From Candidatus Avidehalobacter gallistercoris (GTDB taxonomy: Bacteria; Bacillota; Dehalobacteriia; UBA4068; UBA4997): a DNA stretch of 49,265 bases. The translations under genes and the position numbers were made by a program. Location of the stretch: contig DVMH01000004.1 in assembly GCA_018715045.1 (NCBI GenBank), positions 1-49,265 on the forward strand, in the 5' to 3' direction. Position 1 is the first letter of the stretch; every line of letters starts with the position of its first letter. A model generated the notes under the pieces. It searched no databases. It saw only the letters and a program-made list of their open reading frames with translations, and was not told where the DNA came from. This document shows, piece after piece, positions 17,415 to 21,347 of this stretch.

Positions 17415-18644
17415 TTATGCCTTTCCGCCTTTTACACCGCCGCCACCGGCTAATGAGGCGAGAATGTTCGTGTCATAAGAAAAAGTCAGTTTATCCTTGG
17501 CGCGCTGCCGCCAGAGTGCGGTCTCCACCAGTTCGTTTATCAGCTCGGAAAAATCCAACCCGCTAGCCTGCCAGAGATAAAACGAGAGCGAGCCGGGAAT
17601 GGTGTTGATCTCATTCAAATAGATTTTTCCATCGCGCCCGTCGATCATCACGTCCACCCGCGCCATGCCACAGCCGTCCAAAGCCACAAATGCCCGCTGT
17701 ACCAGACGCTGAATTTCCACAGACATCGCCTCGGGCAGATCAGCCGGAACCTGCCGCCGGGAACTTCCCATGCCCGCCTTAGCTCCTCCTGATGCTCCTT
17801 TCGCGCCGCTTTTGACGCCTTTTGCACCCTCACCGCCGCTCATATACTTATCCTGATAAGTCAGAAAAGCATGGTCGGTCAGCGGCTCCTCGCAAACGCT
17901 GGCCCGCGTCGCCGTACCATGTCCCAGCACCGCGCAGTTAATTTCCCGCCTATTGTCCAGGCATGGCTCCACCAGCAGGCGGCCGGAGAACCCGGCAGCA
18001 TCGGATAGCGCCCGCTCCAGCTCCGCTGCGTCCGCCGCCCGGGCAATACCCACACTGCTGCCCAAATTTGAGGGCTTCACGATAACGGGATAGCCAAACG
18101 CTTCTTCCACCTTTTTTATCTGCTCCGACGGCGCGTTAAACCACTCATCCGCCGTAAACCATACCGCAGGAAGCACCGGAAGCCCATTCGCGGCCAGCAC
18201 ATTCTTCATCATAATTTTATCCATCCCCACCGCAGCGGCCAGCACTCCCGGCCCCGCGTAAGGTATATTCAAAAGCTCCAGTAAGCCTTGCAGACAGCCG
18301 TCCTCGCCGTGTGCACCGTGCATTACCGGCAGAAACACGTCCAGCGGGAGTTCCTGCTCTCTGGCAAACAGCCCCTTACCCCGCCAAACCAGTTTGTGTA
18401 CGCCACGGTCAGCGGTCATCTGCACTCGCTGGCATTTAGCCAAAAGCCCTGGCAGGTCGGCATAATTCGCCATTTCCTTGAGAGCATCACCTGTATACCA
18501 AAGCCCGGCCTTGCTGATGTAAACAGGAATAACGTCATACTTCTGCTCATCTGCGGCAGACATCGCCTGCACAGCAGAGATAATAGAGATCTCATGTTCC
18601 ACCGAGGGCCCGCCATAGATAATACCCAAACGAATTTTATGCAT
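17415..18644 (-). CDS. ddl: D-alanine--D-alanine ligase with a glycine/lysine-rich loop insertion
   Basis: ATP-grasp ligase that makes D-Ala-D-Ala for peptidoglycan. It shows GGPSVEHEIS at the N terminus, VKPSNLGSSVGI for nucleotide binding, and the omega-loop QDKYMSGG with the Lys-Tyr pair of dipeptide ligases rather than the histidine of D-Ala-D-Lac enzymes. NEINTIPGSLSFYLW provides the magnesium ligands. Residues 270-297 form a low-complexity glycine/alanine/lysine/serine insertion inside the omega-loop region, and the C terminus ends in another glycine-rich tail. At 409 residues it is longer than usual (about 310-370). It lies directly behind the membrane MurF gene. Confidence 0.93.
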   Translation of the reverse strand: MHKIRLGIIYGGPSVEHEISIISAVQAMSAADEQKYDVIPVYISKAGLWYTGDALKEMANYADLPGLLAKCQRVQMTADRGVHKLVWRGKGLFAREQELPLDVFLPVMHGAHGEDGCLQGLLELLNIPYAGPGVLAAAVGMDKIMMKNVLAANGLPVLPAVWFTADEWFNAPSEQIKKVEEAFGYPVIVKPSNLGSSVGIARAADAAELERALSDAAGFSGRLLVEPCLDNRREINCAVLGHGTATRASVCEEPLTDHAFLTYQDKYMSGGEGAKGVKSGAKGASGGAKAGMGSSRRQVPADLPEAMSVEIQRLVQRAFVALDGCGMARVDVMIDGRDGKIYLNEINTIPGSLSFYLWQASGLDFSELINELVETALWRQRAKDKLTFSYDTNILASLAGGGGVKGGKA

Positions 18645-18659
18645 ATTGCCGCCCCTTTC

Positions 18660-20300
18660 CTATAAATAACTGTCCGGCAAATCGTTCTCAAACAATACAT
18701 AATCGCCGGAACGAACCCAGCCGCGCATAAACGCCGCCGCCTCGGACAAATCCGCCGCCACAAAGTATTGAGAATGTGGCAAATCCGCGTCTTGCAACCC
18801 CGCCAGCAGTGGTTCGCTCTGCTTATGACCCACGATAATGATAAAATCAAGCTTTGATGCAGCATAGGCGGCAAACTCGCGATTCAGACGAAATTGCTCC
18901 GCCCCAAGCTCCACCATGCCCGGCGTGATGATCATCTTGCGCCCACCCGGCATAGCCGAGAGTACGTCCACAGCCGCCTTAGCTCCGGCAGGATTGGAAT
19001 TGAACGCGTCGTCAATAATCGTGAAGCCCCCGGCGTTTTTAACCGCCAAACGGTGCTCCACCGGCGGCACTTGCGCCACCGCCCGCGCGATAACAGGAAG
19101 AGTAATACCCAAATGCTCGGCCACCGCCGCCGCCGCCAGAATATTATACACGTTGTGTTTCCCCAAAAGACGAGTATGTATTGGCTGAGTGCCCTGGGGC
19201 GTTGCCAGAGTAAAGCTCATTCCCTGCGGCGAAAAAGCAATATCTTTCGCCGTATAGGCAGCATCCGCGCTTTCCAGTCCATAGGACAGCACCGAAACCG
19301 TCAAATTCTGCGCCTTTTTACGTATGATAGGGTCATCAAAATTCAGTACGGCCAGCCCATCCGGCGGCAAGCTGTCAATCAGCTCAAATTTGGTAGCAGC
19401 CACCGTTTCGATATCATGAAACGTTTCCAAATGCTGCGGCCCAATCGCCGTCACAATGCCAATCTGTGGATGAACAATATCGCAAAGCTCTTGGATATCG
19501 CCTTTTTGCCTTGCCCCCATTTCAGCCACAAAAACCTGATGAATAGGCTTCAATTGGTTCCGCACCGTCAGCGTGATACCAAGCGGCGTGTTATAGCTGT
19601 CGGGCGTTACCAGAGTATGTTTCGCCTCAGAAAGCACTCTCCCCAGCACAACTTTACTACTGGTTTTGCCATAGCTGCCGGTGATACCAATACGCAGCAG
19701 CTGCGGCATTTCGCCAATAATGCGCGCCGCATCTTGAATAAAGCGCTGATTTCTGGCCTCTTCAAACGGCTGCCGCACCGCCACCGCCAGCCACATCACA
19801 TACGGCAGCGCCTCCACCAGCACCGCACCCAGCATTACGGACAACCGCAGCGCCGCCCATTGAGTGTTACCAAGCAGCGCAATGCTCACAAGCACGCCTA
19901 GCAACGCCGCCACCGGCAAATACGCCGCCATATAAAGCCGTTTTGCCCGGTCAGTCCACACCAGCGGCTTCTTCACAGACGGACGGCGCCAGCAAGCAAA
20001 CTGCACAACTGCCAGCACTGCTGCCACGTAAAGCGTCCATGCCGGGCGAAAAATGGCAGACAACGCCAACACGACCACTGCCAATACGTCAGCAAGCGGA
20101 AAATCAGCGTGCATCCGCCCTTTCAGCCAGCGCAGATATCGTTCCGGCCGGTAGCTGTTCTGCTGCGCCATGTGCAGAAAGTATGCCAGACGACGCGCCG
20201 CATAGCCCAGCCACAAAGCCAGCACAGCAGCGAATGCCGCCATCTGGAAAATCAGTATATTGTAGGAGTTTTGGTCAAACGCTATTTCGATAATTTCCAT
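18660..20300 (-). CDS. murF: membrane-anchored MurF-type Mur ligase
   Basis: ATP-dependent ligase of the Mur family, expected to add D-Ala-D-Ala to the UDP-MurNAc-tripeptide. Instead of the normal soluble UDP-binding N-terminal domain, residues 1 to about 180 form a hydrophobic region with about five predicted transmembrane segments (roughly 17-35, 69-85, 88-104, 122-143, 148-175). The Mur core follows, with P-loop GITGSYGKTSSK near 205-216, the EMGARQKGDI block, LLGKHNVYNILAAAA and DDAFNSNPAGAKAAVDVL. The start at 20300 is chosen because AGGAG lies ten bases upstream. The neighbouring ddl supports the MurF role. Whether it uses the soluble nucleotide precursor or a lipid-linked one is open. 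Confidence 0.85.
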   Translation of the reverse strand: MEIIEIAFDQNSYNILIFQMAAFAAVLALWLGYAARRLAYFLHMAQQNSYRPERYLRWLKGRMHADFPLADVLAVVVLALSAIFRPAWTLYVAAVLAVVQFACWRRPSVKKPLVWTDRAKRLYMAAYLPVAALLGVLVSIALLGNTQWAALRLSVMLGAVLVEALPYVMWLAVAVRQPFEEARNQRFIQDAARIIGEMPQLLRIGITGSYGKTSSKVVLGRVLSEAKHTLVTPDSYNTPLGITLTVRNQLKPIHQVFVAEMGARQKGDIQELCDIVHPQIGIVTAIGPQHLETFHDIETVAATKFELIDSLPPDGLAVLNFDDPIIRKKAQNLTVSVLSYGLESADAAYTAKDIAFSPQGMSFTLATPQGTQPIHTRLLGKHNVYNILAAAAVAEHLGITLPVIARAVAQVPPVEHRLAVKNAGGFTIIDDAFNSNPAGAKAAVDVLSAMPGGRKMIITPGMVELGAEQFRLNREFAAYAASKLDFIIIVGHKQSEPLLAGLQDADLPHSQYFVAADLSEAAAFMRGWVRSGDYVLFENDLPDSYL

Positions 20301-20324
20301 GTAAGTTAAGCTCCTCTTGAGCAA

Positions 20325-21125
20325 TTATTGCTTTTCCGGCTGCAAAAAATTGTCCGCAATGGCCAGAAACTCTGGCAGAAACTCCAAAAAAGCAAAATGC
20401 GTGCCGCCTTTTTTCACAATAAGCGCCGCGTCCTGCATTTGTTTAGCCATCTTCTCGCCGTCGGAAAGCGGCGTAGCGGTATCGTTTTCACCCCAAAAAA
20501 GTATCGTCGGCACGGTCACCTTGGGCAGGTTAACCGTCTGATCCTCGTTCACTGTTTTCACAAACACTGCCCGCATAACCTCGCTGGCATTGCGGTAATC
20601 CTCCGAACCGCTTTTATTCCTGGCGTTTTGCAGCATCTTTTCCTTATGCACCGAGAGCCCCGGTAGAGAAAGCAGCTTTTTCGCCGTCTTATAGCTGTAC
20701 ACTTTAACGTAATAATCCAACCCCCGGTGCGGCGGTAACCCGGCGCACCCAGTGAGGATCATTTTATGCGGAATTTGCTGCGCCGCCAACCGCAGCGCCA
20801 AACGTCCACCGAACGAATGGGCTATGATAATGGGCGGCCTATCGCAGTTTGCCTTGATGAAAGCAGCCAGCATGGCGGCATAGTCGTTCGTATCCCACAC
20901 TGCTGGAGGTTCGGGGCTGATACCAAAGCCCGGCAAATCAAAATCGTATACAAGAAAATTGGGCATTAAATGGCGGAACACTGGCAGCATCGTCTCAGAC
21001 GAGCAGCCCCAGCCATGCAGCAGCAGCACCGGCCAACCTGCGCCTCCCACCAGATAGCAAACCTTTTGCAGAGCCTCCGCCTTATATATGAACTCTCCCA
21101 ATTTGGGGCCGGTCAAAGAAGTCAT
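20325..21125 (-). CDS. alpha/beta-hydrolase fold protein
   Basis: A 266-residue alpha/beta hydrolase with all three triad positions: the nucleophile elbow AHSFGG, an aspartate in GENDTATP and a histidine in GGTHFAF. The oxyanion-loop motif LLHGWGCSS is also present. There is no signal peptide, so it is probably cytoplasmic. Its substrate cannot be read from sequence. It is the first gene of a unit with the membrane MurF and Ddl (24-base gap), which hints at a role in precursor metabolism. The ATG is chosen over a TTG two codons upstream because AAAGGA sits nine bases before it. Confidence 0.85.
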   Translation of the reverse strand: MTSLTGPKLGEFIYKAEALQKVCYLVGGAGWPVLLLHGWGCSSETMLPVFRHLMPNFLVYDFDLPGFGISPEPPAVWDTNDYAAMLAAFIKANCDRPPIIIAHSFGGRLALRLAAQQIPHKMILTGCAGLPPHRGLDYYVKVYSYKTAKKLLSLPGLSVHKEKMLQNARNKSGSEDYRNASEVMRAVFVKTVNEDQTVNLPKVTVPTILFWGENDTATPLSDGEKMAKQMQDAALIVKKGGTHFAFLEFLPEFLAIADNFLQPEKQ

Positions 21126-21205: not shown

Positions 21206-21234
21206 ATTATATACAAACTTCAGCGGCTTTGCAA
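21206..21234 (-). promoter_or_regulatory. promoter of the hydrolase-murF-ddl-dprA-topA-trmFO unit
   Basis: On the minus strand, -35 TTGCAA (21229-21234) and a perfect -10 TATAAT (21206-21211) are separated by 17 bases. It lies between a terminator and the alpha/beta-hydrolase gene, giving a leader of about 75 bases. This is one of the best promoter matches in the window. Confidence 0.75.
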
Positions 21235-21301
21235 CCATCTGCCCCAAAATATTATGCGGCAGCAAAACGTTTCAGCAGCAAAATTTACTATAAGACACAG
21301 A

Positions 21302-21327
21302 AAAGCCCGGCGTTGCTGCCGGGCTTT
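21302..21327 (-). terminator. intrinsic terminator downstream of the polysaccharide deacetylase
   Basis: A perfect 10-bp stem (21302-21311 with 21318-21327) with a 6-base loop lies 20 bases after the deacetylase stop. On the minus strand it is followed by a short T run. It separates the unit that starts with the electron-transfer complex from the murF unit. Confidence 0.75.
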
Positions 21328-21347
21328 CATCGCGATAAGCAAAATTT

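Follow-up and report, generated by a model that had tools for sequence, protein, structure and literature searches.

A 49,265-nucleotide stretch of the genome of Candidatus Avidehalobacter gallistercoris (contig DVMH01000004.1; hereafter, the window) carries a three-gene cassette encoding an alpha/beta hydrolase, a MurF-like ligase with an N-terminal membrane domain (membrane MurF) and a D-alanine--D-alanine ligase (Ddl). MurF is regarded as a cytoplasmic enzyme of nearly all bacteria that catalyses the final soluble reaction ahead of MraY. Comparison of sequences, gene neighbourhoods and structure models gives good support to the view that membrane MurF has displaced the canonical soluble MurF, and suggests that this membrane-embedded enzyme probably joins D-Ala-D-Ala to a lipid-linked muropeptide. 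The cassette itself, originally predicted from the bare sequence, is real: all three minus-strand genes are present as open reading frames with Pfam matches (Table 1).

In Mur ligases, it is the N-terminal domain that grips the uridine part of the substrate. In membrane MurF, Pfam recognizes solely Mur_ligase_M (residues 213-401) and Mur_ligase_C (423-544) in the 553-amino-acid translation of positions 18660-20321, and neither the Pfam scan nor two structure models revealed the Mur_ligase N-terminal domain, which binds uridine diphosphate (UDP)-N-acetylmuramic acid (MurNAc). The protein was taken to comprise 546 amino acids, starting at the ATG at 20300, rather than the 554 of the open reading frame that begins with TTG, because the sequence AGAGGAG lies ten bases upstream of this ATG. 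The murF profile TIGR01143 scores 254.9 bits, short of its curated cut-off of 288.6, which places the protein outside the family by score; the match spans profile positions 55-403 of 418 and leaves the first 54 unmatched, and the next four profiles, at 221 to 134 bits, also describe MurF or MurF fusions. An AlphaFold model based on a 43-sequence alignment (predicted local distance difference test (pLDDT) 92.2; predicted template modelling score (pTM) 0.86) consists of seven helices over residues 2-196 followed by the ligase core, and residues 1-200 modelled alone yielded the same all-helical picture (pLDDT 92.1, pTM 0.85). The proposed replacement of the soluble N-terminal domain is thus borne out by structure prediction, which did not recover such a domain. 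The accompanying estimate of about five membrane segments is fair without being exact, the hydropathy plot of the window protein having four separate peaks and a fifth that overlaps the first; over the 43 sequences, the number of peaks ranges from 3 to 11 as the threshold splits them, and we relied on the models instead.

The distribution of charge allows the membrane domain to be oriented. Within segment limits that we set ourselves, the family-mean number of Lys and Arg residues is 6.5 in segment 34-69, 5.6 in 94-119 and 4.5 in 173-198, versus 0.9 in 70-93 and 0.3 in 141-148; by the positive-inside rule, the conserved motifs and the ligase core are therefore predicted to face the cytoplasm. 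Of the 12 residues of the domain that are invariant or nearly so, ten (H43, Q46, Y50, K110, K111, T116, R118, P178, E180 and A191) fall in the positive segments, Q46 and Y50 being invariant across the 43 aligned sequences; the remaining two, R121 and L122, lie close to where the following helix starts, at residue 117. These features bear on the possibility that membrane MurF is simply the MurF of the cell acting on soluble UDP-MurNAc-tripeptide, with the membrane domain as a mere tether near MraY. The core is indeed nearest to MurF by both profile and fold, and genomic replacement by itself says nothing of the acceptor. However, neither a residual UDP-binding domain nor space for one is seen, given that the core starts at about residue 200, and the clustering of the most conserved residues at the predicted cytoplasmic interface goes beyond what a tether would need. 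We consider this explanation rather unlikely.

Searches with the membrane domain returned no convincing relatives. No Pfam family scored above its cut-off for the window protein and, among the families listed for 42 members, none matched more than three; the best PDB hits had E values of 0.15 by sequence and 0.75 by Foldseek, and the best VIA-align match (Z 5.3, root-mean-square deviation 4.8 over 105 residues) was within the noise of helical bundles. Such a lack of relatives is no proof of a new fold.

The ligase core keeps the presumed catalytic residues of Mur ligases. G208, S209, G211, K212, T213, N237, E260, H290, K304 and R417, among others, are found in 100% of the 54 membrane forms compared as well as of the 25 canonical MurF proteins, and D431 in 100% and 88%, respectively, so that the P-loop, Glu, His, Lys, Arg and Asp taken to be catalytic in Mur ligases are all present; a lysine common to the two forms is presumably the carbamylated one. 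As originally predicted, the ATPase core and the DDAFNSNP block persist, the latter being intact in the window protein and mostly conserved across the family. The closest structures are those of MurF (4qf5, E 5.7e-28; 3zl8, Z 39.5, root-mean-square deviation 3.9 over 377 residues; and 4cvm), and in a quick tree, whose long outgroup branches call for caution, the membrane forms constitute one clade (Shimodaira-Hasegawa-like approximate likelihood ratio test support 100) beside canonical MurF (96). Several positions are fixed differently in the two forms: T459-P460, in the loop before MxELG, corresponds to L-G in canonical MurF, and N473 to His. Furthermore, canonical MurF carries a KGSR motif (K and S at 100%, G at 76% and R at 80% of the 25 sequences) close to the binding site for the incoming amino acid in Mur ligases, whereas among the 99 membrane forms whose C terminus is complete, none has a KGSR-like motif and all carry END followed by L or F (ENDLP in 96, ENDLL in two, ENDFP in one). 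The latter counts are unfiltered; selection for the alignments demanded DLP or NDL close to the C-terminal end, a condition that could inflate ENDLPD and that removed one sequence longer than 500 residues (L120, with ENDFPD). The shared and the divergent positions together indicate, therefore, that the catalytic engine has been kept and that its substrate-facing edges have changed.

Searches of the host genome, a 95% complete draft of 1.45 Mb in 38 contigs, turned up no canonical MurF. A PF08245 search identified five Mur_ligase_M genes, which we take to encode MurE, MurD, MurC, membrane MurF and, as a 443-amino-acid protein, putatively FolC. The dcw cluster, with gene names assigned by eye from the translations, is intact from a penicillin-binding protein gene at the contig end to ftsZ and lacks murF, mraY directly following murE at a distance of 12 bases. 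The PF08245 and TIGR01143 searches and inspection of the dcw cluster thus leave the cassette gene as the only MurF candidate. The host also has six matches to the PF00905 transpeptidase domain, several of them at contig ends and hence perhaps representing fewer genes, which suggest that it needs the pentapeptide.

The same pattern of replacement extends well beyond the host. In a phylum-wide sample of 299 genomes with a completeness of 90% or more, searched for the canonical form at E 1e-82 and the membrane form at E 1e-100, 275 genomes have the former (274 over the cut-off) and 18 the latter; a single genome (G254) has both, compared with approximately 16.6 expected if the two were independent. 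Seven genomes (G155, G160, G175 and four others) have neither at these thresholds and may encode a divergent MurF or additional types of the enzyme. Carriers outside the class of the host (G116, G220, G248, G254, G267 and G320) are spread over five families; in three of these (f79, f86 and f73), other genomes have canonical MurF and no membrane form. Within the class, among 30 genomes at least 85% complete, 23 have the membrane form, four the canonical one and none both, three being unmatched at E 1e-58 (G002, G004, G015). By our reading of the match rows for 61 genomes (the host and its relatives), 25 have a protein that passes the murF cut-off and another 31 only a membrane-type match, with just a fragment in G002 and G015 and neither form in G004, G032 and G033. 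Finally, a scan of named genomes, in which 80 of 202 loci were kept, provided 50 carriers, one per genome and from several lineages, taken without completeness figures and including four near relatives of the host with coordinates as in the 61-genome set; in 45 of them, isolates of Gracilibacillus, Evansella and Aquibacillus included, no protein passes the murF cut-off.

These counts leave little room for the idea that membrane MurF serves a different pathway as an accessory ligase, for instance as a CapB-like capsule ligase or as part of a resistance cassette, beside a normal MurF. Canonical MurF does occur alongside it in five of the 50 chosen carriers and in G254, but it was not found in the other 45 or in 17 of the 18 carriers of the phylum sample, and the cassette occupies the site that holds ddl-murF in two relatives (see below); we regard this explanation as very improbable indeed. 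By the same token, the suggestion of a second ligase set next to a canonical murF elsewhere in the genome is not supported.

Two further observations concern individual genomes. Closely similar copies of membrane MurF lie on several contigs, at or near their ends, in Gracilibacillus suaedae (L063, L064, L066, L067) and G. lacisalsi (L083, L085), as a result either of genuine duplication or of a repeat in the assembly. The canonical MurF matches of G138, G205 and G254 are within open frames of 839-841 amino acids that likely include a fused second domain, perhaps, as a guess, alanine racemase. In a plasmid collection, the search returned 20 records, none covering 80% of membrane MurF, and the 12 rows listed match the ligase core only.

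Gene order also bears on the replacement. Two canonical relatives from the same class have the arrangements pda-ddl-murF-dprA-topA-trmFO (G035) and ddl-murF-dprA-topA-trmFO (G037), and two cassette genomes have comM-pda-hydrolase-membrane MurF-Ddl-dprA-topA-trmFO (G011) and the same without pda (G036). Therefore, one chromosomal site holds the ordinary ddl-murF pair in at least two relatives and the cassette in the host and others. The three genes form a conserved unit, the hydrolase and Ddl genes directly flanking membrane MurF in the same direction at 66 of the 80 loci; at seven more, a contig end cuts one side and the other partner is present. Of the rest, L054 lacks an adjacent hydrolase, L073, L082 and L086 lack both adjacent partners, and at L064, L067 and L085 the uncut side carries no partner gene. 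Gene order is thus mostly conserved, and the scattering in relatives that would have spoken against a functional unit was not observed. In three small Bacilli/Tenericutes-like genomes the cassette is broken up, with membrane MurF beside murE (L073) or near topA (L082 and L086).

The hydrolase is co-inherited with membrane MurF. In the phylum sample, it is found at 257 bits or more in 17 of the 18 carriers, the sole exception (G014) having membrane MurF at a contig end; among the 281 non-carriers, only two genomes pass E 1e-35, at 130 and 127 bits. It likewise scores at least 280 bits in 13 of 13 chosen carriers and nowhere above 76 bits in 12 canonical-only genomes. Within the class, 24 of the 30 genomes have it at E 1e-10, those without being the four canonical genomes, G004 and G014. 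The four genomes in which no hydrolase gene is adjacent (G072, G087, G092 and G094) encode it elsewhere at 280-316 bits. Where the cassette is broken (L073, L082, L086), the hydrolase is kept at another place in the genome. Its restriction to carriers, even when unlinked, indicates that the hydrolase belongs to membrane MurF across the genome and not merely to the neighbourhood. An unassigned hydrolase family gains a likely pathway in this way. The triad S104, D215 and H243 is kept in all 81 aligned hydrolases (weak, short or identical rows were removed before counting), and the nearest profile, the EstV-like NF058580, scores 129, far below its cut-off of 300.

The cassette Ddl, in turn, informs on the donor. 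It is the only full Ddl match in the host genome, two other proteins matching part of the profile weakly, and it exceeds the cut-offs of the Ddl subfamily PRK01966.1-4 (329.8 versus 262) and of TIGR01205 (282.4 versus 245.65). The K-Y pair, presumed to mark the D-Ala-D-Ala type, is kept in 84 of 84 aligned cassette Ddl proteins. The low-complexity insert that follows it varies in length and ends in a conserved G-M (94-96% of the 84); a flexible, positively charged loop at the active site could serve in docking to the membrane or to the ligase. A ligase descended from MurF that attaches something other than D-Ala-D-Ala, such as another D-amino acid dipeptide or a depsipeptide, with the hydrolase editing wrong products, would fit the ENDLPD block in place of KGSR, the changed loop at 459-460 and the invariant triad of a hydrolase tied to membrane MurF. 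Nevertheless, the K-Y pair and the subfamily score of the neighbouring Ddl point to the D-Ala-D-Ala type, the D-Ala-D-Lac and D-Ala-D-Ser models among those listed have cut-offs far above its scores, and host transpeptidase domains normally need D-Ala-D-Ala, which makes this alternative improbable.

In the mechanism that we favour for a membrane-embedded, lipid-directed MurF, Ddl would make D-Ala-D-Ala, and MraY would transfer MurNAc-tripeptide from UDP-MurNAc-tripeptide directly to the lipid. At the cytoplasmic face, the ligase core would then activate the tripeptide carboxylate with ATP and join the dipeptide to it, the conserved polar patch of the membrane domain acting in the stead of the UDP-binding domain. 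The hydrolase would be an obligate, co-inherited accessory that perhaps edits or releases a wrong product, or a subunit comparable to GatD with MurT. Judging from the replacement and the gene context, D-Ala-D-Ala is very likely the donor. On balance, the acceptor seems to be lipid-linked; with a membrane domain in place of the UDP-binding domain, MurNAc-tripeptide on lipid I or II is the most likely candidate. The adjacency of murE and mraY and the transpeptidase domains fit this lipid-step model without proving it. D-Ala-D-Ala handling at the membrane, as first suggested for the cassette, remains the best reading, one that we infer from these several lines.

Several points weigh against this reading. 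That MraY uses UDP-MurNAc-tripeptide as its main substrate is an assumption of the model, and ENDLPD in place of KGSR, with the altered loop before MxELG, may mean that the donor or its binding differs. As to replacement, 12 of the 18 phylum carriers belong to one class, so the counts are not independent; the canonical protein accompanies the membrane form in the few carriers mentioned (5/50 and 1/18); many carriers are metagenome-assembled genomes and possibly misbinned, including the proteobacterial or planctomycete L047, L054 and L072; and the host genome is a fragmented draft. The shared site is not general either: neither dprA nor topA occurs in the 11-15 kb retrieved with the canonical murF of G041, a member of the class, or of G026 and G030, which belong to the same order, and beyond the class the cassettes of G220 and G248 have neighbours other than dprA-topA.

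Table 1. Features of the membrane MurF cassette and its surroundings in the window.
Feature	Position	Strand	Basis
Ddl	17415..18644	-	Pfam, profiles
Gly/Lys/Ala-rich insert in Ddl loop after invariant K266-Y267	17757..17843	-	alignment
Membrane MurF, 546 amino acids, ATG start: N-terminal helical membrane domain and Mur ligase central and C-terminal domains	18660..20300	-	open reading frame, Shine-Dalgarno sequence, Pfam, TIGR01143, model
ENDLPD block, residues 538-543, where canonical MurF has KGSR	18672..18689	-	C-terminal count
DDAFNSNP block, residues 430-437	18990..19013	-	alignments
P-loop GITGSYGKT, residues 205-213	19662..19688	-	alignments
Membrane domain (residues 1-200) that replaces the UDP-MurNAc-binding domain	19701..20300	-	all-helical models
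Family signature HMAQQNSYRPE, residues 43-53	20142..20174	-	alignment
Alpha/beta hydrolase, S104-D215-H243 triad intact	20325..21125	-	Pfam, conservation, co-occurrence
Promoter-like site TTGCAA-17-TATAAT	21206..21234	-	motif scan
Terminator-like hairpin, 3' of the upstream polysaccharide deacetylase gene	21301..21328	-	motif scan

On the minus strand, the deacetylase gene is followed by a terminator-like hairpin, a promoter-like site and then the hydrolase gene, which starts at the ATG at 21125 with a Shine-Dalgarno-like sequence. The scan found nine promoter-like sites versus 4.8 (standard deviation 2.1) in shuffled sequences and eight terminator-like sites versus 7.1 (2.8). A promoter-like sequence is therefore present as proposed, but given these counts, a single strong promoter for the cassette is only suggestive. 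The dprA gene starts ten bases past Ddl, and the cassette transcript may well continue into it; a topoisomerase gene and a trmFO-like gene follow (these two and the upstream comM were named by eye).

If the proposed activity is confirmed, the order of peptidoglycan precursor steps can differ between bacteria, genomes seemingly devoid of murF need not lack the activity, and inhibitors directed against the UDP site of MurF could miss carrier bacteria. An even broader possibility, about which we are more doubtful, is that in many bacteria of several lineages the pentapeptide is completed after MraY by a two-component, lipid-linked D-Ala-D-Ala ligase with an obligate hydrolase, amounting to a second step order. 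The culturable carriers Gracilibacillus, Evansella and Aquibacillus make the model directly testable.

Literature searches, limited to open-licence PMC papers, found no paper on a membrane MurF. Membrane MurF shares with MurF (TIGR01143; PDB 4qf5, 4cvm and 3zl8) the central and C-terminal ligase domains, the P-loop, a related DDAFNSNP block and, in several canonical loci, a neighbouring Ddl gene; it differs in the helical membrane domain instead of the UDP-binding one, in ENDLPD for KGSR, in scoring below the family cut-off and in forming a separate clade. The cassette Ddl is likewise over the cut-off of PRK01966.1-4 Ddl, but has a variable Gly/Lys-rich loop. CapB/PgsB is also a membrane-anchored protein of the Mur ligase fold, but functions in polyglutamate synthesis and has a different gene context. 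The proposed lipid-linked acceptor draws on the analogy with MurT/GatD. This enzyme uses lipid I and II but no precursors linked to UDP, MurT needs its partner, and the N-terminal region of MurT is a short mobile segment (PMC6085368). MurT resembles membrane MurF in being a Mur ligase in which no UDP-binding domain is seen. Unlike membrane MurF, however, MurT amidates D-Glu with glutaminase-derived ammonia and has no such membrane domain; the MurT profile gives membrane MurF 25 bits against a cut-off of 800, outside that family, and the conserved partner of membrane MurF is, in contrast to GatD, an alpha/beta hydrolase.

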